A DNA stretch of 64,000 nucleotides from Pseudomonadota bacterium (GTDB lineage Bacteria > Pseudomonadota > Alphaproteobacteria > Rhizobiales > Pleomorphomonadaceae): contig JAGSYV010000011.1 of assembly GCA_018262505.1 (NCBI GenBank), forward strand, positions 62,001-126,000, written 5' to 3'. The notes under the pieces were generated by a model that did not search any database, had not been told where the DNA came from, and worked only from the letters and a program-made list of their open reading frames with translations. The position numbers and the translations under genes were made by a program. Positions 18,112 to 64,000 of the stretch are shown one piece after another (position 1 is the first letter of the stretch; every line of letters begins with the position of its first letter).

Positions 18112-18598
18112 TTATACCTCCGCGCCCGCATGTCCGCCATGACTGGAAGCGGTTTCAACGAGCTCCACCTCGGCCTCGGCACATAGGCGGCGTACGCTTT
18201 CGCGCGGACAACGATCGGTGACAAACACGTCCACTTGGGCAACCGAGCCGATCCTCACCGGCGCCGTCCGCTCGAATTTGGTCTCGTCGGCCACCAGGAT
18301 CACCCGGCGCGCATTGGCGATGATGGCCTGCGCCACCTTCACCTCACGGGTTGGCGACATTGATGTTGTTGGTGATCACCATCAGTCCCGAATGCTGCAG
18401 CAGCGCTTGCGCCACCGCCTCGGTGGTCGTGCCGATGTTGATGAACAAAGACGCGTCGTTGGGAATGAGCGAAGCGGCGGCTTCGCCGATCGCCCGCTTC
18501 TCGCCGGCAGCGATCTGGCGCCGCGCCTCATAGCCGACGTTCTTGACCGTCGAGGCCAACACCGCGCCGCCATGCACACGGGCCAGCAGTCACGGCGG
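18112..18598 (-). pseudogene. glpR: remnant of a DeoR/GlpR-family transcriptional repressor (N-terminal truncation plus internal deletion)
   Basis: Two adjacent frames on this strand are pieces of one GlpR-type regulator. The first (HGGAV...EKRAIGEAA...LFINIGTTTEAVAQALL...TNNINVAN) ends in a stop. The second resumes out of frame with REVKVAQAIIANARRVILVADETKFER...VDVFVTDRCP. In intact GlpR about 65 residues, including the LAGG...DGGIVGE effector-domain block, lie between NVAN and xREVK; here they are absent. The N-terminal helix-turn-helix (about 55 residues) is also missing: reading back from HGGA one meets LLARV and then a TGA, which is also the stop of the deformylase-like gene. The regulator cannot be functional. 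No glycerol catabolic genes are adjacent. Confidence 0.85.
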
Positions 18599-26584: not shown

Positions 26585-27030
26585 TAGGCGCGCTTTCTGC
26601 CCGTCACCATCGACCACCAGCACCATGATGGCGTTGGCAAAGCCGCCATGCAACTCCTCGAGCCAGTCTTCTCCCCAGAAGGCATCGAGCGTTGTCATCC
26701 AGCCCGTAATGCCGGTGGCGAGCAGCAAGACCAAGAGAGCCAGCATCATCACCGCCGCGGCGGGATTATGGCCGATATGGCGCGGCTCCTCACCACGGAA
26801 GAGCGCCTTGAGATAGGGGATAAGGCGCCCTGGCGTCGGGAAGAAATCTGAAAAGCGAGCGTGGCGGGTGCCGACGAAGCCCCAGACGAGCCGAATCAAG
26901 ACGACGCCGATGACCACATAGCCGACGTAGCGGTGGTAAAGCCGGCCCGGCTTGAGAATGAAGAGATGACCGGATCCCAGACCCGGACCGTCCGCGGCGG
27001 CATACTGCCGCCAGCGGACGCATCAGTCAT
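26584..27030 (-). pseudogene. cytochrome b561 family gene with two internal deletions
   Basis: The start (ATG 27030, 4 bases after the PepSY stop; MTDASAGG...VRVWDPV) is typical of small Ni/Fe-hydrogenase-type b561 cytochromes. The frame then shifts, the first transmembrane helix is missing, and the protein resumes as LYHRYVGYVVIGVVLIRLVWGFVG...RHIGHNPAAAVMMLALLVLLLATGITGWMT...LEELHGGFANAIMVLVV. The normal fourth helix with its haem-ligand His is absent. The family's usual ending survives in another frame as MVTGRKRA plus TAA, the TAA overlapping the regulator ATG (TAATG). The second deletion places the remnant in frame with the response regulator, producing the 808-residue ORF in the track. 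It is not expected to bind haem. Confidence 0.8.
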
Positions 27031-29115: not shown

Positions 29116-30871
29116 GGGGATTTCTCCGGAAGTGGGGATGGCCGCGCGATAGCACGAATGACCGCCGCGCGGAACCCGCGTCCAATCGATTTGCAGCCGT
29201 GCGGGTCATCGCCCAGGCGACTTCCGGCGTCACCCGAGCCCGCCCCGGCAGCACGATCTGCAGGCTTTTACGGCGGCCGAGCGTATCGGACAGGAACACG
29301 CTGTCCTCGAGCTCCGGCGCGATCAATCCGCAGGTGAAGGTCCAGGCCTCACCGTCGGGAGCAACGAGCAGCACATCGCCGCCAGCGGTGCGGCTCGCCC
29401 GGATCGCCGGATGCAGGTGGAAGCGGATGGCGAAGCGATCGTGGCGCGGTTTACGGCCGGTAAAGGTCAGCCGATCGGAACCGACGATCTCGCCGCCATC
29501 GATGCGCAGGACGAGTCGCCGCTCATGAATGGCGCCAAACCGGCCAGCATAGCCATCGTGGCTCGCCGCCAGCGCAATGACATCGTCGCGGTCCTCGCGT
29601 GCCACCGGCACATTGCGCGGGCCATCGATCATCACCGGCCCGAGCCGACGCACGAGCCGTGGCGTGTCGAGGAAGAGACCCGAGGAAACATCTTCCAGCG
29701 ACAGCGTCGAATGGGCCGGCGTCGAGCGGGCGGCCGAATGCCAACGCGGGTCATCGGCCGCGCCACAATTGACGATGAAGCGGTTGGGACCGCTCGACAT
29801 CTCGAAGGAAAGGCAACCGGCATGCGCCTTCTGGCTCACGCCAACCGGCGGAATAGGTCCAGCGTCCATCAGGATCACCGTGCCGCCCGCTTCCAGCCTC
29901 TGATAGCCGGAATGGCTGGCGTTCGCTACCGGTCGGCCTTGCGTGTCATCATAGGCATTGAGGGTTGCCAGTTGGCCGGCATGACTGACGCTCATCCCGT
30001 TGAAATGCGGCAGGCTGCCGTCCGAATGACGGAAGAAGCGCAACATCGGCATCATGCGATCGATGGCCACGATCAGCGCTTGCGGCGGGTTGACGCCGCG
30101 ATTGGAATAGGCCTGGCGCAGCGGCAGGAGATCGGTCAGGAGGTCGGCAATCACCGAAGGGTCGCGGCTGATATGGCCACCATCGGGCAGGATCTGGCGG
30201 CGGAGTTCCTGTTCAAGCCGTAGGCCGGCCTGCCGGGCGAGCCGGCCCTGATTATCGGCGGAAAGCGCGAAGACCCCGACGGCGACGGCGGCGAGCAGGC
30301 GCGGATAGCCGTCGACGGCATCGCTCTGGCGGCCGCGCAGGCGGCGCACCTGCCGGACCAGCGAGCGCAGGAAACGGCGGTAGAAGGCGCGATCGGCATC
30401 CTTCAGGATCAGCGGCGACTGGGTGATCCAGGCGATCACCCGGCGAGCCATGTTCTCGGTCTCATAGGCTTCCGGCGGCGCGTGCGCTTCCTGGGCGATC
30501 CAATCGGCAACCAAGGCTCGGGCGTTCTGGCGGGCGAGCGCATTCTCGGCTGCCCTGAGGTGTCTCAGCCAGGAAAAGCCATGCAGCGCCCGCGTCCATT
30601 CCGGTGACGGCGACGGCATGTCGAAGGGCGAGCGGCCGCCCGTTTCCACCATCTTGCCAGCAAAGGCGAAGAGGCCGGCGTAGATATCGGCGGCAATGGT
30701 CGGATCGGTCGTGCGGATGTCCTGCGGGGCGATGACCAGTCGCTCGGGTGTCGAGCCCGGCCAACGCCAACGCGAGAAAGGTCCGCGTTCGAGCGTCAGC
30801 ACGACGCGGCGCAGGGCCAGTTCACCGGCGAACAGCACCAGCCGGGCCGTGCCGGCGACTTGTGCGCGCAT
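28745..30871 (-). CDS. heparinase II/III family protein with run-on C-terminus into purH
   Basis: The conserved part (about residues 1-570) is a heparinase II/III-fold protein as commonly found upstream of purH in Rhizobiales: an alpha-helical toroid with [23 protein letters not shown] and FSWLRHL, then the beta-sandwich SHAGYQR-like and NRFIVNCGA segments. The family is related to polysaccharide lyases, but the substrate of this subgroup is unknown. The domain ends near VAWAMTRTA (about 29190). No stop follows, and the frame continues another 130 or so arginine- and proline-rich residues across the purH start to 28745. A normal stop appears to have been lost. ATG 30871 is used instead of the upstream TTG. 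Confidence 0.75.
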
Positions 30872-31021: not shown

Positions 31022-32461
31022 TCATTGGCGGCGCAGGCGCGCCGCGAAGAAGCCGTCGAGGCCAGAAAGCCTGGGGTCTTCCTGCTTGAGATGCGACGGC
31101 AGCGTGCGGATAAAGCCGTCGGGCGTCACAATCTCTTCCATACCGAACACCTCGTCCGCCGTCACCGGCACCACGTCGAGCGGTGCCTCGATCAGTCTGA
31201 GACGGCGGATCTGGTCCGGCCCCTCCTCCGGCTCCAGCGAGCAGGTGGAGAAGACGATCAGGCCGCCTGGCCGCAGCATGCGGATCGCCTGATCGATCAG
31301 GCGGCGCTGGATCGCGGCCAGAGTGGCTACGTCAGCCGGCTTCTTGCTCACCGCGCCGTCAGGGTGGCGACGCAACGTGCCCGTCGCCGTGCAGGGCGCG
31401 TCCAGCAGCACCATGTCGAAGGTACCGCCCAGCCATTCGGTGGCGTCGGCCTTGACGAGGTTCGCCTTGAGGCCAAGCCGGCGGAGATTGCGCTCGAGGC
31501 GCTGCAGGCGATGATAGGACACGTCGACGGCGGTGACGTCAGCGCCGAGCGCCGCCAATTGAGCGGTCTTGCCGCCGGGGGCGGCGCAGAGATCGACAAC
31601 CTTCTTGCCTTTGACATCACCCAGCAGTTGGACGGGCAACGTGGCGGCGGCGTCCTGCACCCACCAACCGCCCTCTTCGTAGCCGTCGATCTTTTCGACG
31701 GCGCCGGTGACGGGAAGACGCACCGAGCCGTTGGGCAGCTTGATGCCGCCAAGCCGGGTCGCCCAGCCCGCGGGGTCTGATTTCACTGTAAGGTCGAGCG
31801 TTGGCTCGAGGGCGTTCATGGCGGCGATATCGCGGGCGACCTCGGTGCCGTAGTTGGCGCTCCAGCGCTCCATCAGCCAGGCGGGCGTATTGAGGGAAAC
31901 CGCATCCTGCTCGGCGAGGATGGTCGCCTTGTTTTCGGAGACGCGGCGCAGCACGGCGTTGACGACACCCTTGAAGGGCGCGGCCGCCTTGTCGATACCG
32001 GCGAGTTCCACACCGAGTGCGACGGCGGCGTGATCGGCGACATCCATGAACATGATCTGGGCGGCCGAGACGGCGATGACCGCCTTCAGCGTGCCCGCAT
32101 CGTCGGGCAGCGGCCGCGTCAGGAAGCGACCCACCGCGTCGTCGATCTGGCCATGACGGCGCAGCGCATAACCAACGATGGCGCGGGCAAGACCTCGATC
32201 GCGCGGATCTAGACGCTGGTAGCGCTCGGCCGCGGCGCCCTGATCGAGCAGAGCATCGAGAAGCTTGCCCTTCTGAACGCCGGCCACCAGCTCCACGGCG
32301 ACGGCACGCGCCTCGATGCCTTGCGGCCGCGGCGGACGCCGACTGCCCTGAGGCGGACGCGCACCTTTGAAGGCGCCCTTCTGGCCATCCTGGGGACGTG
32401 CCGGCCTGAATGTATTGCCGGCTTTTCCGCCGCCCTTGCGGCCATTGTTGTCTGCGGTCAT
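31022..32461 (-). CDS. rsmB: RsmB-family 16S rRNA (cytosine-C5) methyltransferase
   Basis: SAM-dependent RNA m5C methyltransferase of 479 residues. An N-terminal NusB-like domain (about 60-190) precedes the catalytic domain. SAM motif I is [16 protein letters not shown]. The motif IV cysteine is in [17 protein letters not shown], and the motif VI nucleophile is in [12 protein letters not shown]. The first 45 residues are basic and Gly/Pro-rich. ATG 32461 overlaps the stop of the htpX frame (ATGA), so the two were translationally coupled. The catalytic residues are intact. Confidence 0.9.
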
Positions 32462-33322
32462 CCCCACGGTCCACGGTTCGAAGGCCGTCCGGCAGAACCA
32501 CTCCCACCCCACGGGCCACTCCAAGAACCGCGCGGCGCGGTCCAGGGACCATCCACCATGGGTTCAGAGACAGGTCGCCGGAAGCCGTCGCCATCCGCCA
32601 TCGCCATCAGGGCGTGGATGCGGTTGGCAGTATCCGGGTGGGTCGAAAACAGGTTGTCCATCCTGGCGCCAGACAGCGGATTGATGATGAACAGATGCGC
32701 CGTAGCAGGATTTTGCTCCGCTGTCATGTTCCATCTGCACCAGCATGGCGGCGAGCGGCGCAACGATGGCGGCAAGCAGTACGCCAATACCGCCGAGCGG
32801 GCTGCGGTTCTCGCTGTCGCGGTTCATCGAGCCGAAGAACAGGCCGAAATTGGCCAGCATCGAGATGGCGCCGGCAATCGTCGCCGTCACCGTCATGATC
32901 AATGTGTCGCGGTTCTGAACATGCGACAGCTCGTGGGCCATGACGCCGGCGATCTCTTCCCGGTCGAGCATCTGCAACAGGCCGGTGGTCGCGGCGACGG
33001 CGGCATGCTCAGGATCGCGGCCGGTGGCAAAAGCGTTGGGTTGCGGATTGTCGATGACGTAAACGGCCGGCATCGGCAGGCCGGCGTTGGCAGCAAGACG
33101 CTCGACGATGCCATAGTATTCTGGCGCGCTCGCCCGGTCGACGCGACGGGCGCGGTGCATGGCCAGCACCATCTTGTCAGCATTCCAGTAGGAGAAAAGA
33201 TTCATGCCGGCGGCGACGACAAAAGCGATCAACATGCCGCTTTGACCGCCAATCAAGTAGCCGGCGGCCATAAAGATCGCCGTCATCGCGGCGAGCAGGA
33301 GGGAGGTCTTGAAGAAATTCAT
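32458..33322 (-). pseudogene. htpX: HtpX zinc metalloprotease disrupted by an internal deletion
   Basis: Membrane-embedded quality-control protease. The N-terminal two thirds is normal: two hydrophobic segments, [29 protein letters not shown], and the zinc motif [14 protein letters not shown]. After LAAMLVQM the frame goes wrong ([11 protein letters not shown]...). The correct C-terminus [32 protein letters not shown]...NRGPWG continues in another frame and ends at 32458 in an ATGA overlap with rsmB. About 43 residues present in homologues are missing at the joint, including the TREYAAD segment with the third zinc ligand. The predicted 252-residue product would have a nonsense tail and no complete zinc site. 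Confidence 0.88.
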
Positions 33323-51775: not shown

Positions 51776-52597
51776 GTGCAACCAAAACCCATCCGTCTCG
51801 GCACGCGCGGCAGCCCGCTCGCCCTTGCCCAGGCCCACGAGGTACGCGACCGCTTGGTCGCCGCCTGGGGTGCGCGTGCGCCGGAGGTCGAGATCGTGCC
51901 GATCAGCACCGCCGGTGACCGTATCCAGGATCGAACGCTGGCCGAGGTGGGCGGCAAGGGCCTGTTTACCGAGGAAATCGAAGCTGGTCTGTTGAGCGGT
52001 ACGCTCGACATCGCCGTCCATTCCTCCAAGGACATGCCGACAGTGCTGCCCGAAGGCCTGGCAGCCTCGCTGCGGCGCGCGGCGATCGTCCGCCGCCTCC
52101 GGCCCGATGTCGTCGTCGTGCCCTACCGCGGCAATGTCCAGACGCGGTTGCGCAAGCTCGGCGAAGGCATCGCCGACGCAACACTGCTGGCCGTCGCTGG
52201 CCTGAAGCGCCTCGGCATGCTCGAGGTGGCTACTGAGATCCTCGATCTGGAATCCTTTCCCCCAGCGGTCGGTCAGGGGGCAATCTGCATCGAAAGTCGC
52301 GTGGATGACGCTCGGGTCGCCGAGCTTCTGGCCCCGATCCACCATAAACCGACTGCCGTCGCACTCGCCTGCGAACGGGCCTACCTTGCCCGCCTCGATG
52401 GTTCGTGCCGTACGCCAATTGCCGGCTATGCGGTGGCGACGGACGGCGGGGTGGATCTCCACGGCCTGATCCTGACGCCGGACGGCCGCGTTGCCCATGA
52501 GGGACGGGAAAGCGGCTCCGACCCGGAGGGCGTCGGCGATCGCCTCGGCGCCCGCCTCGCCGCGCTGGCCGGGCCGGGCTTCTTCGGCGGGAGCTGA
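51776..52597 (+). CDS. hemC: porphobilinogen deaminase (hydroxymethylbilane synthase) lacking about 35 core residues
   Basis: Third enzyme of tetrapyrrole synthesis; polymerises four porphobilinogens on a dipyrromethane cofactor. Identity is certain: [24 protein letters not shown], the catalytic Asp in [28 protein letters not shown]-like [12 protein letters not shown] and the cofactor-Cys motif [10 protein letters not shown]. Between VLPEGLA and SLRRA, however, homologues have about 35 more residues containing the EREDPRDAF block and GATVGTSS; here the two ends are fused in frame. The product is 273 residues against about 305-310 normally. It is unlikely to be active as read. GTG 51776 follows GGGGAG. 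hemD starts 3 bases after its stop. Confidence 0.9.
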
Positions 52598-52600
52598 GCC

Positions 52601-54712
52601 ATGGTTCTTCTCATTCTCCGTCCGGAACCGCAGGCGAGCGACATGGTGGCGGCACTCGCCGCCCGTGGCGTTCCGGCCCTCGCCGAACCGATGCTGACCA
52701 TCGAGCCGGCGGATAACCCCACTGGCCTGGTGCGTGCGGCCGATCCCAACGCCGAAGCCCTCATCCTCACCTCGCGCCAGACGGTCGCGATCCTGAAAGG
52801 TGCCGGCGGACTTCAAGCTCTCACCGGGCTGCCGGTGATCGCCGTCGGTGCCGGCACCGCTCACGACGCCCGAGCCGCCGGCTTCGTTGACGTCCGTTCG
52901 GCCGACGGCAACGCCGACGACCTCGTCGATCTCGTCGCCCGAACCGGTTTCCACCGCCTCGTCCATGCCGGGGGTAGGGACAAAGCCGGCGACATCGTCG
53001 GCCGGCTGGCCGGGCTCGGCGTCACGGTCACCGAAGCCGAACTCTATCGCGCCGAACCCCGGCAAGACCTTGCTCCGGAAGTCGTCACCGCCTTCACTGA
53101 GGAGCGTATCGATGGGCTGATCGTCGCCTCGAGGCGCTCCGCGCAAGCTTTCGCTGATCTCATGGACGCAAGGGGCTGGGCACCCCGTCTCGCGCACCTC
53201 GGCGCCGCGGCCCTTTCGGAGGCGGCGGCAGCGCCGCTCACCGGCCGCGTCGCCGAAATGATCGTGGCGCCGGAACCGACCGGTCCGGCACTCGTTGAAG
53301 CTAGCGTTGCGCTCGCCGCCCGGCTGCGCGAAACTGCCGATGGCGAGCATGAAGCGGAGGGACTTGAGACCATGATATCCGAAGACCACCGCAAGGACGC
53401 TGCAAGCCGGCGCAATCGCCCGAAAGCTCCCGTCATCGATCTTGAGGCAACCGAAGTGGCAAAGGCCGCCCAGCCACCAAAACCGCCCCAAGAACCGCCG
53501 CGCGAACCACCTGTTCCCGAGCCGCCAGGACCGGACGTGCCGCCGATCCAGCCGCCAGAAGAACAGCCTCCGTTCGGCGACCCGCCGGGACCGGACGTAC
53601 CGCCGAACACACCGCCGGACGAACAACCACCGTTTGGCGATCCACCGCTGGACAACCCCACACTGGCGTCGGGAAAAGCTGAAACCGCCAAGGCGGAAGC
53701 CGCAACGGCGCCACGCACCGATCGTCCCAGCCAGATAAAAGCCTTCCTGCCGCTTCTCGGGGCAGGTGTTGCTGGCGGCTGTGTTGCCGCCGTTATCATC
53801 TTGTCCTTGATGCCGCGCTCCAGCGAACGTCCCGAGGCCGGCAGCATCGACCCGGCAACCTTGGAAGCGCGCCTTGGGGAAGTCGCCGACCGCCTGGCTG
53901 CCGGGCAAACCGCAACCGAGACGCTTACCAGTCGGATTGCCTCGCTCGAAGGCAAAGAAGCGCCTGTCGTCGATCTCGCTCCGCTCGGCACCCGCATTGA
54001 CGACCTCGCCGCCCGCTTGGGCGCCGCCGAGAAAGCCGCCGCCGCCAAGCCGGTCGTCGATCCTGCCACGATAACCGCTCTCGAAGGCCGGGTCGCCGAA
54101 CTCGTCTCGGCAGCGGACGCACTGAAGGCGGGAAACGCCACCGCGGCGACCCGCCTCGCTGCCATCGAGGAGCGCCTTGCCAACGCACCCAAGGGTGGCG
54201 AGATCGCCGCTCTGTCGCTCGCCCTCACCTCAATGTCGGGTAAAATCGACGCCGGCCTGCCGTTTACGACCGATCTCGCCGTGATTGCCGCCGCAGCCCC
54301 CGACCTCGCCGGTCTCGACGACCTCCGGGCACTTGCCGACAAGGGGGTACCGACCCGAGACCGATTGCTGGCGACGCTGCCGGTGGACGCCATGCTGGCC
54401 CGACGGCCGGTTGAGGTCGGCAAGGGGTGGATGGACGGCCTGTTCGATAGCGCCAAGTCCCTGGTCAACTATCGCGAGACCGGTCCGGCCACCACGGACC
54501 CGGCATCGAGTGCCGTCGAGGCGATCCATGAAGCGCTGAAGCGCGGCGACACCGCCGCGGCCAAGACGGCTGCCGACACCCTGCCTGCTTGGGCGCGTCC
54601 ACCGGCCGAGAGCTGGCTTGCCGATCTCGACGCTCGTGTGCGTGTCGATGCCGGCGTGAAGGCCATTTCCGCTCGTATTGTCGATCGCTTGTCGGTGCCC
54701 GCCACCAACTGA
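52601..54712 (+). CDS. hemD: uroporphyrinogen-III synthase fused to a mitofilin-like membrane protein
   Basis: A single 703-residue frame. Residues 1-240 are uroporphyrinogen-III synthase (LILRPEPQASDMVAALAARGV, ALILTSRQTVAIL, ADGNADDLVDLV, GLIVASRRSAQAFADLM), which closes and inverts ring D of hydroxymethylbilane. After an internal Met (about residue 258, MISEDHRKDAASRR) comes a proline-rich linker with two 20-residue repeats, a transmembrane helix LLGAGVAGGCVAAVIILSL and a long alanine-rich coiled-coil region ending in a C-terminal helical domain, as in the COG4223/mitofilin proteins usually encoded separately just after hemD. GAGGGACTTGAGACC before the internal ATG could allow separate translation. 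No stop divides the two parts. Confidence 0.85.
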   Translation: MVLLILRPEPQASDMVAALAARGVPALAEPMLTIEPADNPTGLVRAADPNAEALILTSRQTVAILKGAGGLQALTGLPVIAVGAGTAHDARAAGFVDVRSADGNADDLVDLVARTGFHRLVHAGGRDKAGDIVGRLAGLGVTVTEAELYRAEPRQDLAPEVVTAFTEERIDGLIVASRRSAQAFADLMDARGWAPRLAHLGAAALSEAAAAPLTGRVAEMIVAPEPTGPALVEASVALAARLRETADGEHEAEGLETMISEDHRKDAASRRNRPKAPVIDLEATEVAKAAQPPKPPQEPPREPPVPEPPGPDVPPIQPPEEQPPFGDPPGPDVPPNTPPDEQPPFGDPPLDNPTLASGKAETAKAEAATAPRTDRPSQIKAFLPLLGAGVAGGCVAAVIILSLMPRSSERPEAGSIDPATLEARLGEVADRLAAGQTATETLTSRIASLEGKEAPVVDLAPLGTRIDDLAARLGAAEKAAAAKPVVDPATITALEGRVAELVSAADALKAGNATAATRLAAIEERLANAPKGGEIAALSLALTSMSGKIDAGLPFTTDLAVIAAAAPDLAGLDDLRALADKGVPTRDRLLATLPVDAMLARRPVEVGKGWMDGLFDSAKSLVNYRETGPATTDPASSAVEAIHEALKRGDTAAAKTAADTLPAWARPPAESWLADLDARVRVDAGVKAISARIVDRLSVPATN
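53525..53644 (+). repeat. two tandem 60-bp repeats coding for a proline-rich linker
   Basis: Two adjacent 60-base units in frame with hemD/mitofilin encode PGPDVPPIQPPEEQPPFGDP and PGPDVPPNTPPDEQPPFGDP. They form the flexible linker between the synthase domain and the membrane anchor. Slight divergence between copies indicates an older duplication. Confidence 0.9.
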
Positions 54713-56547: not shown

Positions 56548-56679
56548 TATGTTAGGCCCACTCGGCCCTGTTGTTATCCCTCTTCTGCTCCACCTTTCTG
56601 TGACTGATCACGCTGCTTTGCGTCGCTCTGCCTTGAGCCACACATATCCAAGCCTTTGTTCGCATCTTTCGTAGCGTGA

Positions 56680-57036
56680 TCAAGGATCTTCCCGCTTTCC
56701 GCTAGCCACGATCGAAAGCGTCCCGTCTGGCAATGGGCGTTGAAGGGCTCGCGCCTCCCCCCAAGGGGCGTTTAGCCACACGTCGACCTCTTCCGGATTT
56801 GTGAGGATGACAGGCATCGCTTTTGGATGAATCGGAGCCACCTCCGCATTGGCATCCGTAGTCAAGAATCCATAGAGCAAGTGCTCTCCCTCGACCGGGT
56901 CTGATTTCGGCCCTCGTGTGCCATGCCATTTGGTCCAGACTCCCGCGAAGAAAAATAGCGGGCGGTCTTCGCCGAGCGCGAACCATGTGGGCGTCTTTTT
57001 CGGTTTCGTGTCGGCGTATTCGCAAAAGGACGACAC
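56680..57036 (-). pseudogene. C-terminal half of an SRAP (SOS response-associated peptidase) protein
   Basis: 118 residues corresponding to the second half of the SRAP/HMCES/YedK fold that crosslinks to abasic sites in single-stranded DNA: SSFCEYADTKPKKTPTWFALGEDRPLFFFAGVW, GFLTTDANAEVAPIHPKAMPVIL, and the end IVASGKREDP. The conserved active-site His falls in IHPKAMPV. The N-terminal half, about 100 residues including the catalytic Cys2, is absent; upstream lies unrelated A/T-rich DNA. It is a fragment and cannot crosslink DNA. Confidence 0.85.
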
Positions 57037-57177
57037 AGGCCTGGGGCGCCAAATTTTAAATATTATGTTGAAATATCAATTATTTATGTATTTTAGTTAC
57101 ACACTATCCGCCAGTTGCTCCACCTTTTGAACGTTGGTTAAGTGCCTTTGGGCAGGCGATCACTCAGGAGGCAACCC

Positions 57178-57459
57178 ATGGGTGACGTCTTCACGCCGGA
57201 GACACTGGCGGAGCGGTGGCGATGCTTGCCGCGCCATGTGCGCAACATGATCGCCAGCGGCGATCGAGCCGCCTTCCGCCTTGGCGACAAGCTGTTGCCT
57301 ATCCGTGGCGAAGTGGTTGAGGAATTCGAGCGCCGTGCTGACGCATCAGAGGATTCGCGCTCACCTTCGACAAAGAAGGAAGGCGAAGACGCTATTCGCT
57401 CAGAGCTGATAATACGGGCAAGACTCACAACTTTGCGTCAACGCTATTCGCAGAGATGA
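57178..57459 (+). CDS. excisionase-like helix-turn-helix protein
   Basis: A 93-residue small DNA-binding protein. TPETLAERWRCLPRHVRNMIASGDRAAFRLGDKLLPIRGEVVEEFE matches the MerR-like/AlpA excisionase helix-turn-helix seen in prophages and integrative elements. The C-terminal 40 residues are charged. A strong TCAGGAGGCAACCC site precedes ATG 57178, so the upstream extension in the track is rejected. It likely controls excision or phage gene expression. Confidence 0.8.
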   Translation: MGDVFTPETLAERWRCLPRHVRNMIASGDRAAFRLGDKLLPIRGEVVEEFERRADASEDSRSPSTKKEGEDAIRSELIIRARLTTLRQRYSQR

Positions 57460-57474
57460 CTAGGATGTTGAGGG

Positions 57475-57783
57475 TCAACAGAATTGACCGCCACCAGCGT
57501 AGCAATTGAAGCGATCGATCACGCGGTTGTACTCTTTCAATGTGGCGTCACTTTCCTCTCGAAGGCAATTTATGTACGTCTTCACCTTCCTTTGATAGTC
57601 TTCTGTTTCAAATTTGCATGAGTTGAACTCTATCTCGTCATTGAACGCCCCAAGATATGGGCATGTCGGTGCGGCTGGCCTCTTGCAGAATAGTAAAGAG
57701 GCAGCCGCCGGCTGTGGAATGGGAAGCATTGACAATGATAGAGCAACAAGCGTCGCACATGCCTTGACGGCCCGCATTGACAT
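57475..57783 (-). CDS. small secreted cysteine-containing protein, unknown
   Basis: A 102-residue protein with signal peptide MSMRAVKACATLVALSLSMLPIPQPAAA and a mature region with six cysteines (LLFCKRPAAPTCPY, FNSCKF, YINCLREE, FNCYAGGGQFC). These could form disulfides in the periplasm. GGGAG precedes ATG 57783. It lies on the strand opposite the HTH gene, 15 bases past its stop. No family is recognised; it may be a cargo gene of the element. Confidence 0.6.
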   Translation of the reverse strand: MSMRAVKACATLVALSLSMLPIPQPAAASLLFCKRPAAPTCPYLGAFNDEIEFNSCKFETEDYQRKVKTYINCLREESDATLKEYNRVIDRFNCYAGGGQFC

Positions 57784-58058
57784 AGCTCCCACCCCTAGGC
57801 GCTCCACTGGCCGATCGGCGCCAAACCCCGGCCCATCTTCGGATTATAGGCGCTCGTGCTGATCTTGGGATACCGCATCATTACGATGCAGGTGTGCGGG
57901 GCAGAGCGCGGGCCGGCCGGCTCGGGATATGGGCTGGGCGGTTCAAGGTGCCGTGCGCATTTCGCGGCAAGACGTGCTGAAAAAGAACCCCCGCAAAAGG
58001 CTGACTCGACAACCCCGGTTCGATTCGATTGGATGCCGCAACCATGGGAGGGGCGGCG

Positions 58059-58409
58059 ATGAATATCTCAACGATTGGCGACAGGCTTGCAATCGAGACG
58101 GAAGACGGCAGGATCACTCTCTCGGCAGAGGAAGTTGCGAAACTGATCGTAAACGCCCGCCAGATTCTGGGTCGATTAGCGTCAGCGTCGCCGGAAGAAG
58201 GTCAATATAGACCTGTTCCGTCGATACGGGCGACCGGGCTGAAAGCGAGCCTGGATGCTCACCATTCTTCGGTGGTTCTCGCAGTGCGGCGCGAAGACGA
58301 TCAGGATGACGCATATGTTCTCTCTGTAGAAGCTGCAAAAGGACTCGCAGAAGACATTCTTGACTTGGTCAAGCAGGTTGCTGCTGAGGGGCCTGCGAAA
58401 CTGCAGTGA
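58059..58409 (+). CDS. hypothetical protein
   Basis: A 116-residue soluble protein not recognised. It begins MNISTIGDRLAIETEDGRITLSAEEVAKLIVNARQIL and ends with a helical segment VEAAKGLAEDILDLVKQVAAEG; the middle holds SVVLAVRREDDQDDAYVLSVE, a likely beta hairpin. GGGAGG lies close before ATG 58059. It is first in a rightward run with the two small membrane proteins. Confidence 0.6.
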   Translation: MNISTIGDRLAIETEDGRITLSAEEVAKLIVNARQILGRLASASPEEGQYRPVPSIRATGLKASLDAHHSSVVLAVRREDDQDDAYVLSVEAAKGLAEDILDLVKQVAAEGPAKLQ

Positions 58410-58500
58410 ACTGCGGCCGAGTTTCCTTTCTCCCGCACCGTTCCGACGCGTGATCGTCCCAGCGCTTTCCGCTATGGTTGCGGTGAAGGGGGCGCAAAAG

Positions 58501-58863
58501 ATGGTGTGGAATAGCGAGAAGGCGAGATACGCCGTTGCTGCTGCGATTGGCGTAGTGGTCTTTGTTTTGGTAGGGTTTTTCGCCTACAGTATCGAGCGCG
58601 GACCAGAATGGAGCTATTCGCTTACTGAGTGGCTTGCGCAACCACTCAGATTTGGCGTTTTCTGGTGGGCTGTGCTGGGAGCCGTGGTTGGCGCTGCGTA
58701 CAATTTTCTACTCTCCAAACGGCTGGATGAAATGCCTCCGCATCGCGCTGAAGGGCCAAGCGAAGCAGAAAAAATGGACGGATACGGCGAGATGTCCGAC
58801 GAAGAACGGCAGAGCCGCCTTGCGGCTATTGTCGGTTCAAAGTCCTCAAGTAGTCGAACGTAA
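58501..58863 (+). CDS. small two-helix membrane protein in the prophage region
   Basis: A 120-residue protein with two transmembrane helices (AVAAAIGVVVFVLVGFFAYSI and FGVFWWAVLGAVVGAAYNFLL) and a hydrophilic C-terminal tail (MSDEERQSRLAAIVGSKSSSS). GGGGGCGCAAAG precedes ATG 58501. It overlaps nothing and is followed 19 bases later by a second membrane protein. The topology suits a holin, a superinfection-exclusion protein or a morphon protein; none is demonstrated. Confidence 0.6.
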   Translation: MVWNSEKARYAVAAAIGVVVFVLVGFFAYSIERGPEWSYSLTEWLAQPLRFGVFWWAVLGAVVGAAYNFLLSKRLDEMPPHRAEGPSEAEKMDGYGEMSDEERQSRLAAIVGSKSSSSRT

Positions 58864-58882
58864 CCTTCTGTTGGGGGAGAGC

Positions 58883-59254
58883 ATGGAAGACGAGGGGCTT
58901 AGCCCATATGCACGAGAACGTTATTCCGATCTGGCGAAGGAATGGGCGCGCCTGCGATCAGAGTACAGACAAACTGGAAAGCACGAAGGGGCGGCATGGT
59001 ATCTTGGACCGGTATTCGGTCTAGGTGGTCTCTCTATGGCGTTGTTTGGGCCATTCGATGGAGGAGATTATTTCCTTAATGCTTTCACATCTGGAGTGCT
59101 GATAACGATTTCTATCGCTAGCTTTCTGTATATTTGGACTGACCGGAGCAAATCAGGGAAATTGTTTCTGGCTATGTTTAAGATCGAGGAAGAGCTTGGC
59201 GACAAAGGGTACGAACCGCGCGACGACGGTACGTTCAGAAAAAAGTCCCACTGA
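58883..59254 (+). CDS. second small membrane protein in the prophage region
   Basis: A 123-residue protein: a charged helical N-terminus MEDEGLSPYARERYSDLAKEWARLRSEYRQ, two transmembrane helices (AAWYLGPVFGLGGLSMALFGPF and FTSGVLITISIASFLYIW), and a short charged C-terminus. GGGGGAGAGC precedes ATG 58883; the longer ORF in the track is rejected. Codon use is less G/C-biased than in the chromosomal part. It is convergent with the large phage gene, 49 bases away. Unknown function. Confidence 0.6.
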   Translation: MEDEGLSPYARERYSDLAKEWARLRSEYRQTGKHEGAAWYLGPVFGLGGLSMALFGPFDGGDYFLNAFTSGVLITISIASFLYIWTDRSKSGKLFLAMFKIEEELGDKGYEPRDDGTFRKKSH

Positions 59255-59303
59255 GCCGACACCCGCACCAATCGGGCTAGGGCGGATCGAAAGATAGACG
59301 TCC

Positions 59304-62300
59304 TCACCGCTTCTCCGGCTCTGGATCAAGCGCCGGGTCTATGACGTGCGCGAACAACGGCCGCACGAACCAGAGACCAATGAACGGCGCCAATCGCTTG
59401 GCGAGCACGTAATCTGAGTGCGTGGCCGGGTTCCCTTTCATGATGTTGGCGATCGTCGCCGGCACTGTGGCGATGTCCCGCGCTGTGCCAGCTGTTGGCC
59501 CGAGCAAACTGTCAACAACACTGCGCGAAGCAAACCGGCTCGCCGGGGCGCGCTGGCTACTGCCGGGGAAGGCCGCCGCCGCTCCGGTATAGATGCCCGG
59601 CAATCCCATTTTCTCGAATGTATTGTTCGCCTCGAACAGCACGGAAAAGACGCCGCTGCGGTCCAGCCCTTCAGCGATCCACGTTCCCGGATTGTCGGAA
59701 ACGTCCGTTCCGAAAGCGACGTGGCGAAGCCAATAGATGAACATGCCGATGGTTGCCATTCCGGTTACGCCGCCAATGAAACGTGTCTGCCCTTCCTGAA
59801 GGCCGCGAATGAGCACGCGCTGATTTGCGGCAATGGTGAAGCTCTTGAACTGGAGCAGCGACTTGCCGATCGGCGTGCTCGCCAGCAACGGCACATCGCC
59901 GACACCCTTGGTGACGATGATCGAGGAGACGTCCTTGGCGACGGCCGCGCGGAACGCCTGGCGCAATGCGTCGCCGGCCGGGGCAGCGGCCCATGCCTCG
60001 GTGTTGGCGACATGGACACCGTCGACCGTCTCGCCGTGCTTGATGAACAGCTCGCCGAGCCGTTCGGCTCGCTCCTGGCCGATGCCAAGATATCCCATGT
60101 AAGCCCGCTCGCGTTCGGGCAGCGACGCAAAGCCGTCCTTCGCCGCCTTCATGGCGTTGTCGAAAATGCGGTTCTGCGTCATGCGAGAGGCAAAGGCCCG
60201 GTTGAAATCGTCCCATAGATCGAGACCGGTCATTCTGGAAAACCGCGTCGATAGGTTCTCCATGAGCCGTTCAATGACCGTGCCCTGTCGGTACGGGTCG
60301 GTGATTTCCGACAGCGCCGCCATGCGGGAATGAAGAATGGTCTCGCCGACGGCGCCAGCTAGCTTGGCCTCCTTGGCGCTCATCCTGACGCCCTGAAGCC
60401 CATGGAGCAGCGGGCCTAGGCCGTCTTTCACATAGGAGCGAAGCCCGTGAACCATGGCGGGCCGGGCGGCATCGGCGAGCGAGCCGATGACAACCCCGCC
60501 CATCATGCGGGTGTAGTTGAAGACGCGGGCCGCTGCGAGCGTCCGCGCCCAGGGCTCGCCGGCCGACTGCATGCCATAGGTGCCGCGCAACATGTCGCGC
60601 ACCGCCTCGATGTCGCGAATATCGGCGCGCTCGCGGGCGCCAAGCTTCTTCCTGTCTGCACCTGGCAGCTCGCGCAGGCGCGCATACTCGGTGCGGATCT
60701 CCGCGATTTGGTCCTTGAGCGTTGGCGAGCCGTAGCGTTTGGCCAATTCGATATCGGCGGCCATGATGCGGGCATAGCGCCGGCCGACCAACTCGATATC
60801 GTTCTCCAGAAAGTCCTCGACGAGGTGGTCGGGAATGCCGAAAGTGCGGCCTTTCAGCGGACCACGCGCCGCCATGACGGGTTGGAAGTTGGTCGACACG
60901 CCGCCGCGCCCGGTAAGCTGGTTGAAAATGTCGTCGACAATTTCATTGATGTAGTCGGCCCGGTCGGCAGCGCTGACAAAATCGAGATCGCCACGGCGGC
61001 CAGTCCCTGGCGCCGTGGCATCGAGCGCCGCTCTCAGCTTTGCGACGGTCTGCCGGTCCTTGGCGTTGAGGCTTTCGGCAACGCGCTTTGCGAAGTTCTT
61101 CAGGTCGTCGGCGGTGGCGAACATCTGCTGTTTCACGCCAACGTCGACACCCATGCGGCCGAGATCGGCGACAACCTGGTCGAACACGTCGGCATCTGCG
61201 GCGGCGGCCCTATCGGCTTCTCTGACCACCCGGCGACGACCGCCGAAATCATCGGCCAAGTGGTCTAGGAGATCGTTCGCGGTCGGCCGATCTGCGGACT
61301 GGATGAAACCTTCGTCCCAAGCCAAGCGCGCGGCGGTATCGAGATCTAGCCCGCCATCCTTGTTCGTCAGCGTCTGCTTTTGCTTCCGGACAAAGCCGGG
61401 GCGGGTCTTGTTGGAAATGCCCAGCGCTTCCAGTTCGCCGCGTTCGTCGAACAATCCGCCTTTGCGGTGAAGGAACTGCGTCAGCTTTTCGGGTGCTGGC
61501 GCCTTTGTCTTGGCGCGGATGTGGTCGACTGCCCGCAATATCTGCCGTTCCGTCTCGGCATCGACAGCGATTTCGCCGCCGGCCTCGCGGCGCTTTGCAT
61601 CCTCTGCCCGGCGGAGCATGGTCATTTCGAGATCGTCGATTTCCGACTGAAGCAAATTGGCTTTCTTTGCAGCCTTCGCCGACTGGCTTTCCGCCTGGAC
61701 GGTGATTTGGTCATCGGCCCAGCGCCGCACGATGTCGCGAAACTCTCCTTCGCGCGCTTCCAGCACCGGCCGGCGCCACATGCGGCTGAAATAACTCTCG
61801 GCTGTTGTGACATCCACATCCGCAGGCAAAAGGCCGGCGTCGATTGCCTGTTGCTTCAGCGGATCGAACACCTTGGAGCGCCACGCCTCGGCCGCTTCGG
61901 TGGCGCCGGCAACGCTGCTCTTGTCGCCGCGCCGCATGGCCCGGCCGGCCTCAGTGTTGAAATCGTCGAGGCTCATGGCGAGCCCGGCCTTTCGAGCGTC
62001 GGCGTAGGCGGCGCGGTTCGCCTCGATGGCATCAGCAGCGGCGCCGATCGACCATTGCCGCATTGCGCTTTCCGCCGCCGCATCGCCCGCGCCTTCAAGG
62101 TTCTTGGTGAGATAAACGGGGTTCTCCATCAGGCCGGCAGCCACTTGGCGGACGGCGAGAGACGGACTCTGGAGCGTGCGCAGAAGCGGATTGAGTTGCG
62201 CCGTCGCCTTTGCCGTCGCGCGCGCCGCCTTACCGGCGATCTCGTAGTCGGCGAGCTTTTCAGGGGCGACGCCTTGGGCGCCAATTCCCTGCGGTAGAGG

Positions 62301-63047
62301 CTGGTTGCCCCCGAGCTCGTTGGCATAGGCTGTCATTTCCCGGTGAAGAGCATCGGTCGCCGCGTCGGCATCAGGCGCTTTCACCTTGTCGACGGCCGCC
62401 GATCCCTGGAAATGGTCGATCGCGGATAGCGCGCCGTGTGCGGCGCCTCCCAAAAGGCCACCGAGCAGCACCGAGCCGCCAACGTTGTACAAGCTGTCTT
62501 CGGCCGTCCGCGTCTCCTGGCTGGCCTGGAGCGCCATTTCTTGGGCCAACGTGGCGCCGCCGGCAGCGAGCCCCACATCAAGCCCGGCGCGGATCAAGCC
62601 AACGCCGGCCCGTGCACCACGCAAGCCGACCCCACCCGGAAGGAAAAGGGTCGGATCGGCGAGACTGGCGCCGATATCGAAAGCCGTCCCGACCCAGCCC
62701 GACTTTGCGCGTGTCGCCTTGTCGCGGCGCTCCATGTCGATTTGCGCTTTGACCTGGTCGCCGGCCTTGGCGTTGAACACCTCGAGGAAGCGCTCGGGTT
62801 GGTCGTCGTAGCCCTCGAGGTAGTTGCCGGCGTAGGGCGAGAAGGACGGATCGACCTTGTAAAAGTCGCCCGTTGCTTTGTCGTAAAGGGTTTTGTTCGT
62901 CAGGATGGACGTGATGGGGTTGTTCTGCCGGAACGACGCGACGGCGGTATCGGCAAGGCTCGGCTCGGTTTCAGGCACGGCGCCAAGCTTCTGGCTGACG
63001 AGGTAGTCGGCAACGGGGCCAACGGTGCTGGTTTCATCGAACGGCAT
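59304..63047 (-). CDS. large phage internal virion protein-like protein
   Basis: A 1,247-residue phage protein. Long alpha-helical, Ala- and Lys-rich regions alternate with Gly/Ala-rich amphipathic stretches (SLADPTLFLPGGVGLRGARAGVGLIRAGLDVGLAAGGATLAQEMAL; NVGGSVLLGGLLGGAAHGALSAI), and the C-terminus has a membrane-active appearance (FIGGVTGMATIGMFIYWLRHVAFG). This architecture is typical of internal-core/DNA-ejection proteins of short-tailed phages. The frame is intact. It is followed upstream (9 bases) by another virion-gene frame. Exact family membership needs a profile search. Confidence 0.65.
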   Translation of the reverse strand: MPFDETSTVGPVADYLVSQKLGAVPETEPSLADTAVASFRQNNPITSILTNKTLYDKATGDFYKVDPSFSPYAGNYLEGYDDQPERFLEVFNAKAGDQVKAQIDMERRDKATRAKSGWVGTAFDIGASLADPTLFLPGGVGLRGARAGVGLIRAGLDVGLAAGGATLAQEMALQASQETRTAEDSLYNVGGSVLLGGLLGGAAHGALSAIDHFQGSAAVDKVKAPDADAATDALHREMTAYANELGGNQPLPQGIGAQGVAPEKLADYEIAGKAARATAKATAQLNPLLRTLQSPSLAVRQVAAGLMENPVYLTKNLEGAGDAAAESAMRQWSIGAAADAIEANRAAYADARKAGLAMSLDDFNTEAGRAMRRGDKSSVAGATEAAEAWRSKVFDPLKQQAIDAGLLPADVDVTTAESYFSRMWRRPVLEAREGEFRDIVRRWADDQITVQAESQSAKAAKKANLLQSEIDDLEMTMLRRAEDAKRREAGGEIAVDAETERQILRAVDHIRAKTKAPAPEKLTQFLHRKGGLFDERGELEALGISNKTRPGFVRKQKQTLTNKDGGLDLDTAARLAWDEGFIQSADRPTANDLLDHLADDFGGRRRVVREADRAAAADADVFDQVVADLGRMGVDVGVKQQMFATADDLKNFAKRVAESLNAKDRQTVAKLRAALDATAPGTGRRGDLDFVSAADRADYINEIVDDIFNQLTGRGGVSTNFQPVMAARGPLKGRTFGIPDHLVEDFLENDIELVGRRYARIMAADIELAKRYGSPTLKDQIAEIRTEYARLRELPGADRKKLGARERADIRDIEAVRDMLRGTYGMQSAGEPWARTLAAARVFNYTRMMGGVVIGSLADAARPAMVHGLRSYVKDGLGPLLHGLQGVRMSAKEAKLAGAVGETILHSRMAALSEITDPYRQGTVIERLMENLSTRFSRMTGLDLWDDFNRAFASRMTQNRIFDNAMKAAKDGFASLPERERAYMGYLGIGQERAERLGELFIKHGETVDGVHVANTEAWAAAPAGDALRQAFRAAVAKDVSSIIVTKGVGDVPLLASTPIGKSLLQFKSFTIAANQRVLIRGLQEGQTRFIGGVTGMATIGMFIYWLRHVAFGTDVSDNPGTWIAEGLDRSGVFSVLFEANNTFEKMGLPGIYTGAAAAFPGSSQRAPASRFASRSVVDSLLGPTAGTARDIATVPATIANIMKGNPATHSDYVLAKRLAPFIGLWFVRPLFAHVIDPALDPEPEKR

Positions 63048-63056
63048 CTTTGGACC

Positions 63057-64000
63057 TCACTCGCTGGCTTTGGCTGGTTTGACGGCCGGGACGGTCATCG
63101 GCCCTGGCGGCATGTCTGACGGACTGATGTCCGATGTCGTCGCTTGGTCGGGCTCAGGGGTGCTCAACTCGATTTTCGGCGCCGGTCCCGTCACCAATTG
63201 ATCGGGCGCCATGTCGGCCGGGCTGATGTCCGCGTTCCATTGCATTTCGCCCTGGCGGATTGCCTCAAGCTCTGTGATCCGGTTCGGATCTGTCACCGGC
63301 TTGCCGCTGCCATCGGGCGGGGTGGCGAAGAAGCGGGCGGGAGCGAGCTGATATTTCCCGTCGCTGTCTATGTACCAAGCCTGATAGCGCGGCGCGCGGC
63401 CGGCTCGAACGTCGGCCTCCGTCGTCTCATCGGGGACAAGGAAGATGGCCTTCGGCTGGATGCCCTTTGAGGTGAGATCCGCAAGCGCCTGCTGGCGGAT
63501 GTAATCATGGCTTCCCTTGGGGTCGGCCGGATAGGCTTTCTCCGGCGGCAGGAACATCACGGCGTCAGGGCCATCCATTGATAGGGCGGACGTTCCGTAG
63601 CGCCGTTGAAACCGATCGTTGGCGAGCTTGGTCCCGGCGTCCAAGTCGCCGCCGGCATCGAACACGGCTTCGGTCAGCGTCTCCCGGTAGTCGCTGACGA
63701 TCGCAGCCGATTGCGCGGTGGTCTTGCCAAGCGTTGGCGGGCTGGAAAACCATCCGCCGCCGAACAGCGAGCGAACGTCGCTTTCGGTGGCCGCCGCGTC
63801 GATCGCCTTTCTCATCGGTTCGGCGTCCATCAGCGCGGCGCGCTGGCGGACCTTCTCCGGATCTTGGGCATCGAGTATGCGCCGCGTGGCTTCAGTCGGC
63901 GAAAGCCCGACCGACGACGTGTAGTGATCGAACAGCGCGACTTGATCCGCCAGCGCGCCACCCGATGGCGAGCGAGCCAGCGCCCCAGCGTTCACGGCGC
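63057..64000 (-). CDS. phage protein, probable virion component (5' end outside window)
   Basis: At least 314 residues, open at the right edge; the Met at 63995 is probably internal. Sequence features: LFDHYTSSVGLSPTEATRRILDAQDP, a Pro-rich region, and near the C-terminus two short repeats ISPADMAPDQ and ISPSDMPPGP. It has the helical, low-cysteine composition of internal virion or scaffold proteins. It is translated just upstream of the large internal protein and is presumably co-transcribed with it. Confidence 0.55.
   Translation of the reverse strand, partial: AVNAGALARSPSGGALADQVALFDHYTSSVGLSPTEATRRILDAQDPEKVRQRAALMDAEPMRKAIDAAATESDVRSLFGGGWFSSPPTLGKTTAQSAAIVSDYRETLTEAVFDAGGDLDAGTKLANDRFQRRYGTSALSMDGPDAVMFLPPEKAYPADPKGSHDYIRQQALADLTSKGIQPKAIFLVPDETTEADVRAGRAPRYQAWYIDSDGKYQLAPARFFATPPDGSGKPVTDPNRITELEAIRQGEMQWNADISPADMAPDQLVTGPAPKIELSTPEPDQATTSDISPSDMPPGPMTVPAVKPAKASE

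Follow-up and report, generated by a model that had tools for sequence, protein, structure and literature searches.

A 33-Residue Gap in the hemC Gene of a Draft Genome Related to Pleomorphomonas, Most Likely Lost in Assembly

The hemC Locus

The window examined here is a 64,000-nucleotide stretch (positions 62,001 to 126,000 of contig JAGSYV010000011.1, assembly GCA_018262505.1) of a draft genome whose nearest named relatives are Pleomorphomonas. It carries hemC, encoding the heme pathway enzyme hydroxymethylbilane synthase, as an ORF on the forward strand (51776..52597) with a GTG start and a product of 273 aa, assigned through TIGR00212, PF01379, and similarity to congeners. The product scores 266.1 bits against the hemC equivalog TIGR00212 (cut-off 164), which places it within the family. 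The gene adjoins tsaD on the opposite strand and is followed directly by hemD (tsaD and hemD were named from sequence and established neighborhoods), and this tsaD-hemC-hemD neighborhood is collinear with that of congeners. The hemD gene (window 52601-54712) appears to be fused to a long C-terminal part, proline-rich and coiled, giving 703 aa in total, with a proline-rich repeat whose length varies between congeners. Further along, a stretch of ~9.4 kb (window ~56550-64000, continuing into positions 126001-128195 of the window contig) did not align to the congeners G012 or G010 at this site; it carries minus-strand ORFs of 1247 and 312 aa that by eye resemble phage or mobile-element parts.

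HemC from the window aligns well with characterized and congeneric homologues on both sides of a single gap. Shared with Escherichia coli HemC (1PDA; TIGR00212, PF01379) are the SKD motif with the substrate/catalytic Asp, the substrate-binding Arg residues of SLRR and RGN, a 16-residue stretch (letters not shown), the cofactor Cys in DGSC, and the tsaD-hemC-hemD arrangement. The window protein differs in lacking 33 residues at E. coli positions ~95-127, a segment that includes the domain 1-2 hinge as well as the opening two strands of domain 2. Compared with HemC from Pleomorphomonas (e.g., P. oryzae DSM 16300), residue identity outside the gap is ~93%, but the Pleomorphomonas protein is 306 aa long with its EREDxRDAFVSLKY block intact. 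PF01379 gives a split match to the window protein, covering profile positions 1-87 and 121-206 and missing 88-120, and the hinge and domain 2 core that hold the EREDPRDAF block are left 33 residues short.

At the nucleotide level, precisely 99 bp, or 33 codons, are missing where codon 96 meets codon 97; the junction (52061..52064, forward strand) falls at window ~52063/52064 with a float of 0-2 bp. The block is present in all congeners read: HemC is 306 aa long in 12/12 members of the Pleomorphomonas group, and the alignment contains no gap other than the 99 bp. A first-pass annotation, made from the window alone, had reported an in-frame loss of core residues with the EREDPRDAF block missing and the substrate Asp and cofactor Cys motifs retained. 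The alignment bears this out, while correcting its length from "about 35" residues to 33 and moving the junction slightly, from 52068-52075. Recombination between two LPEG-coding repeats was considered as a cause, and the 90-bp spacing of the repeats does not fit a 99-bp loss.

E. coli numbering was inferred by anchoring SLRR to residues 129-132, and on this numbering the gap spans T127 and residues 100-104, which form the hinge between domains 1 and 2 of the E. coli enzyme (PMC3945110). Within the missing block lie residues that are near-invariant among 26 HemC sequences of the class (R103, E104, D105, R107, D108, and G128). In the AlphaFold model of P. oryzae HemC (pLDDT 92), the hinge and three strands (95-100, 108-111, and 126-129) all lie in this block; an alignment-free prediction for the shortened protein, at pLDDT 42, is uninformative. 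With the hinge and the two leading strands of domain 2 gone, the enzyme as written is predicted to be dead: on these comparisons and the P. oryzae model, a 273-aa HemC should neither fold nor work as HemC, in agreement with the first-pass expectation.

That annotation had further reasoned that a nonfunctional HemC would call for a second copy or some other explanation. The need is real, and the second copy did not materialize: family and protein searches of the draft (5.28 Mb, 257 contigs, 89.85% complete, 0.75% contamination) found no other hemC. A 47-aa query for the missing block on another contig gave no match, though this search, run without a positive control, says little. Elsewhere in the pathway, hemB, hemD, and hemE are present, and hemB and hemE are intact. 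Second copies of hemC occur in only two of 59 relatives searched (G023 and G054), neither of which belongs to this genus or family. Searches of 13 genus-mates recovered the gene in 12, each time as a pair of matches with the block between them. The remaining one, G009, a draft of ~300 contigs from the same genus, lacks a hemC match altogether, probably a draft gap as well.

Clean Deletions across the Draft

Approximately 210 kb of the draft, from five of its 257 contigs, was aligned with syntenic regions of the congeners G012 (a single 5.48 Mb contig), G010, and G006. Only deletions specific to the draft and leaving a near-zero remainder were counted; intergenic differences of ~100 bp, which are also found between congeners, were left out. 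These excluded intergenic blocks on the window contig (e.g., at window 31001 and 49252) are present or absent among the four genomes, leave 10-20 bp behind, and may belong to a small family of repeats in the genus.

Across four of the five contigs, the comparison revealed 15 clean deletions ranging from 31 to 193 bp, each leaving ~0-2 bp in place and nearly equal in size against every available congener. Nine lie on the window contig (42, 86-87, 176, 193, 43, 104-106, 116, 99, and 82 bp), three on contig C5 (55, 75, and 71 bp), two on C8 (31 and 49 bp), and one, of 92 bp and seen against a single congener, on C9; C7 has none, so the rate is uneven between the sampled contigs. Twelve of the 15 lie inside genes that congeners conserve or trim the ends of such genes. 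The genes concerned encode 3-hydroxyacyl-CoA dehydrogenase, a DeoR regulator (hit twice), cytochrome b561, a 604-aa conserved protein, HtpX, HemC, a Tim44-domain protein, and, by eye, proteins resembling fumarylacetoacetate hydrolase, GNAT, a sugar-binding protein, and a porin. Outside these twelve, the 86-bp deletion takes away the sequence upstream of a gene for a BI-1-like membrane protein, along with the first codons of that gene.

Several of the window genes, all on the minus strand, are visibly broken. In the DeoR-family regulator gene (region 18115-18589), 176 bp are missing at 18348..18349 with a resulting frameshift, and 193 bp at 18589..18590, taking the start and N-terminus. The cytochrome b561 gene (PF01292) is frameshifted by the loss of 43 bp at 26967..26968, and htpX (Peptidase_M48; region 32461-33322) by the loss of 116 bp at 32730..32731. 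The 604-aa conserved gene, heparinase-like by eye, has lost 104-106 bp at its 3′ end (29193..29194), together with its C-terminus and stop.

No long repeats were found flanking the junctions, and the draft stretches read contain no runs of N. Removal of N by the data store is unlikely, since other genomes held there (L168 and L107) retain theirs; the submitters of the draft may have stripped them.

A single gene-level test was applied to all four genomes; the proline-rich repeat that follows hemD, variable in a congener as well, was excluded. Conserved genes missing an internal block numbered 5/79 on the window contig of the draft versus 0/80, 0/80, and 1/85 in the three congeners (pooled Fisher p = 0.004). 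Deletion lengths divisible by three made up 3/12 (binomial p = 0.76 against 1/3), displaying no preference for frame, as an artefact would. The remaining codons of the broken genes are constrained like those of intact genes, under purifying selection: dN/dS is 0.061 for hemC, 0.067 for htpX, 0.038 for deoR, 0.032 for hbd, and 0.173 for cytochrome b561, all below the 90th percentile of the compared genes (0.18; median 0.079). No excess of single-base frameshifts or stops over the congeners was visible in the draft, a rough guide as the stop flags include opposite-strand ORFs.

Origin of the Gap

The 33-residue gap is very probably an artefact of the draft assembly, and comparison of the sequences places the origin of the gaps most likely in the assembly rather than in the cell. 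Similar clean losses are scattered through other conserved, unrelated genes of the draft and are absent from its relatives, which is why an assembly loss is preferred to an unusual enzyme. With so many comparable deletions in unrelated genes, neither hemC nor heme synthesis need have been singled out. Segments of ~30-190 bp would have been dropped at joins along the contigs without leaving N runs, through a mis-join, a collapsed low-coverage gap, or faulty gap closure as candidate failures. In this scheme hemC would be one gene hit by chance, its 99-bp loss keeping frame as one in three should, and the organism itself most likely has a HemC of the usual 306 aa. Such losses at joins would account for the sister gaps, the indifference to frame, the absence from congeners, and the constraint alike; the fragmented and incomplete state of the draft (257 contigs, 89.85% complete) also counts in favor. 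metaMIC (PMC9661791) deals with local misassemblies in draft genomes and in metagenome-assembled ones. The resemblance lies in scattered short losses regardless of gene or frame, and the difference in that the gaps of this draft are known from the assembled sequence, not from reads.

Clean joins without N, the intact hemC frame, and the failure to find a second hemC would also suit a real and recent burst of 30-190 bp deletions, with hemC dead and the strain dependent on outside heme or late precursors. Were the sampled rate to hold genome-wide, however, some hundreds of genes would be broken in a genome of genus-normal size (5.28 Mb), and the relaxed selection expected of decay is missing, dN/dS in the broken genes being as low as in intact ones. 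The burst would have to be very recent and heedless of frame, and hemB and hemE are intact. We regard such a burst as very unlikely, and slightly more so the full claim that an alphaproteobacterium of free-living genome size has just lost heme synthesis along with hundreds of other genes through small deletions. The ~90% completeness of the draft leaves some room for a full hemC elsewhere, with the window copy a spare pseudogene, but a single hemC was found, duplicates are confined to two relatives outside the genus and family, and the broken copy sits in the collinear tsaD-hemC-hemD neighborhood, making a spare copy very unlikely. Scarcely any weight attaches to a functional shortened HemC that still makes hydroxymethylbilane. 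The kept frame, the retained SKD, SLRR, and cofactor Cys motifs, and the strong purifying selection outside the gap speak for it; against it stand the loss of the hinge, strands, and near-invariant residues, the absence of the gap from every other HemC read, and the comparable out-of-frame losses nearby, which point to a process that ignores frame. Searching the literature for HMBS deletions that keep the frame yielded nothing beyond human porphyria and unrelated papers.

Implications

If the loss were true, the organism would depend on heme, within a genus otherwise composed of heme producers. With assembly as the most likely cause, the hemC finding becomes an ordinary one, and broken or shortened essential genes of this draft are not to be taken as biology. 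A pseudogene reading of the DeoR regulator, cytochrome b561, 604-aa heparinase-like, and HtpX genes is likewise doubtful, given their similar clean losses. The combination of similar-sized sister gaps in neighboring genes, frame preference, and selection on the remaining codons can also serve in other drafts to tell artefact from real gene loss.
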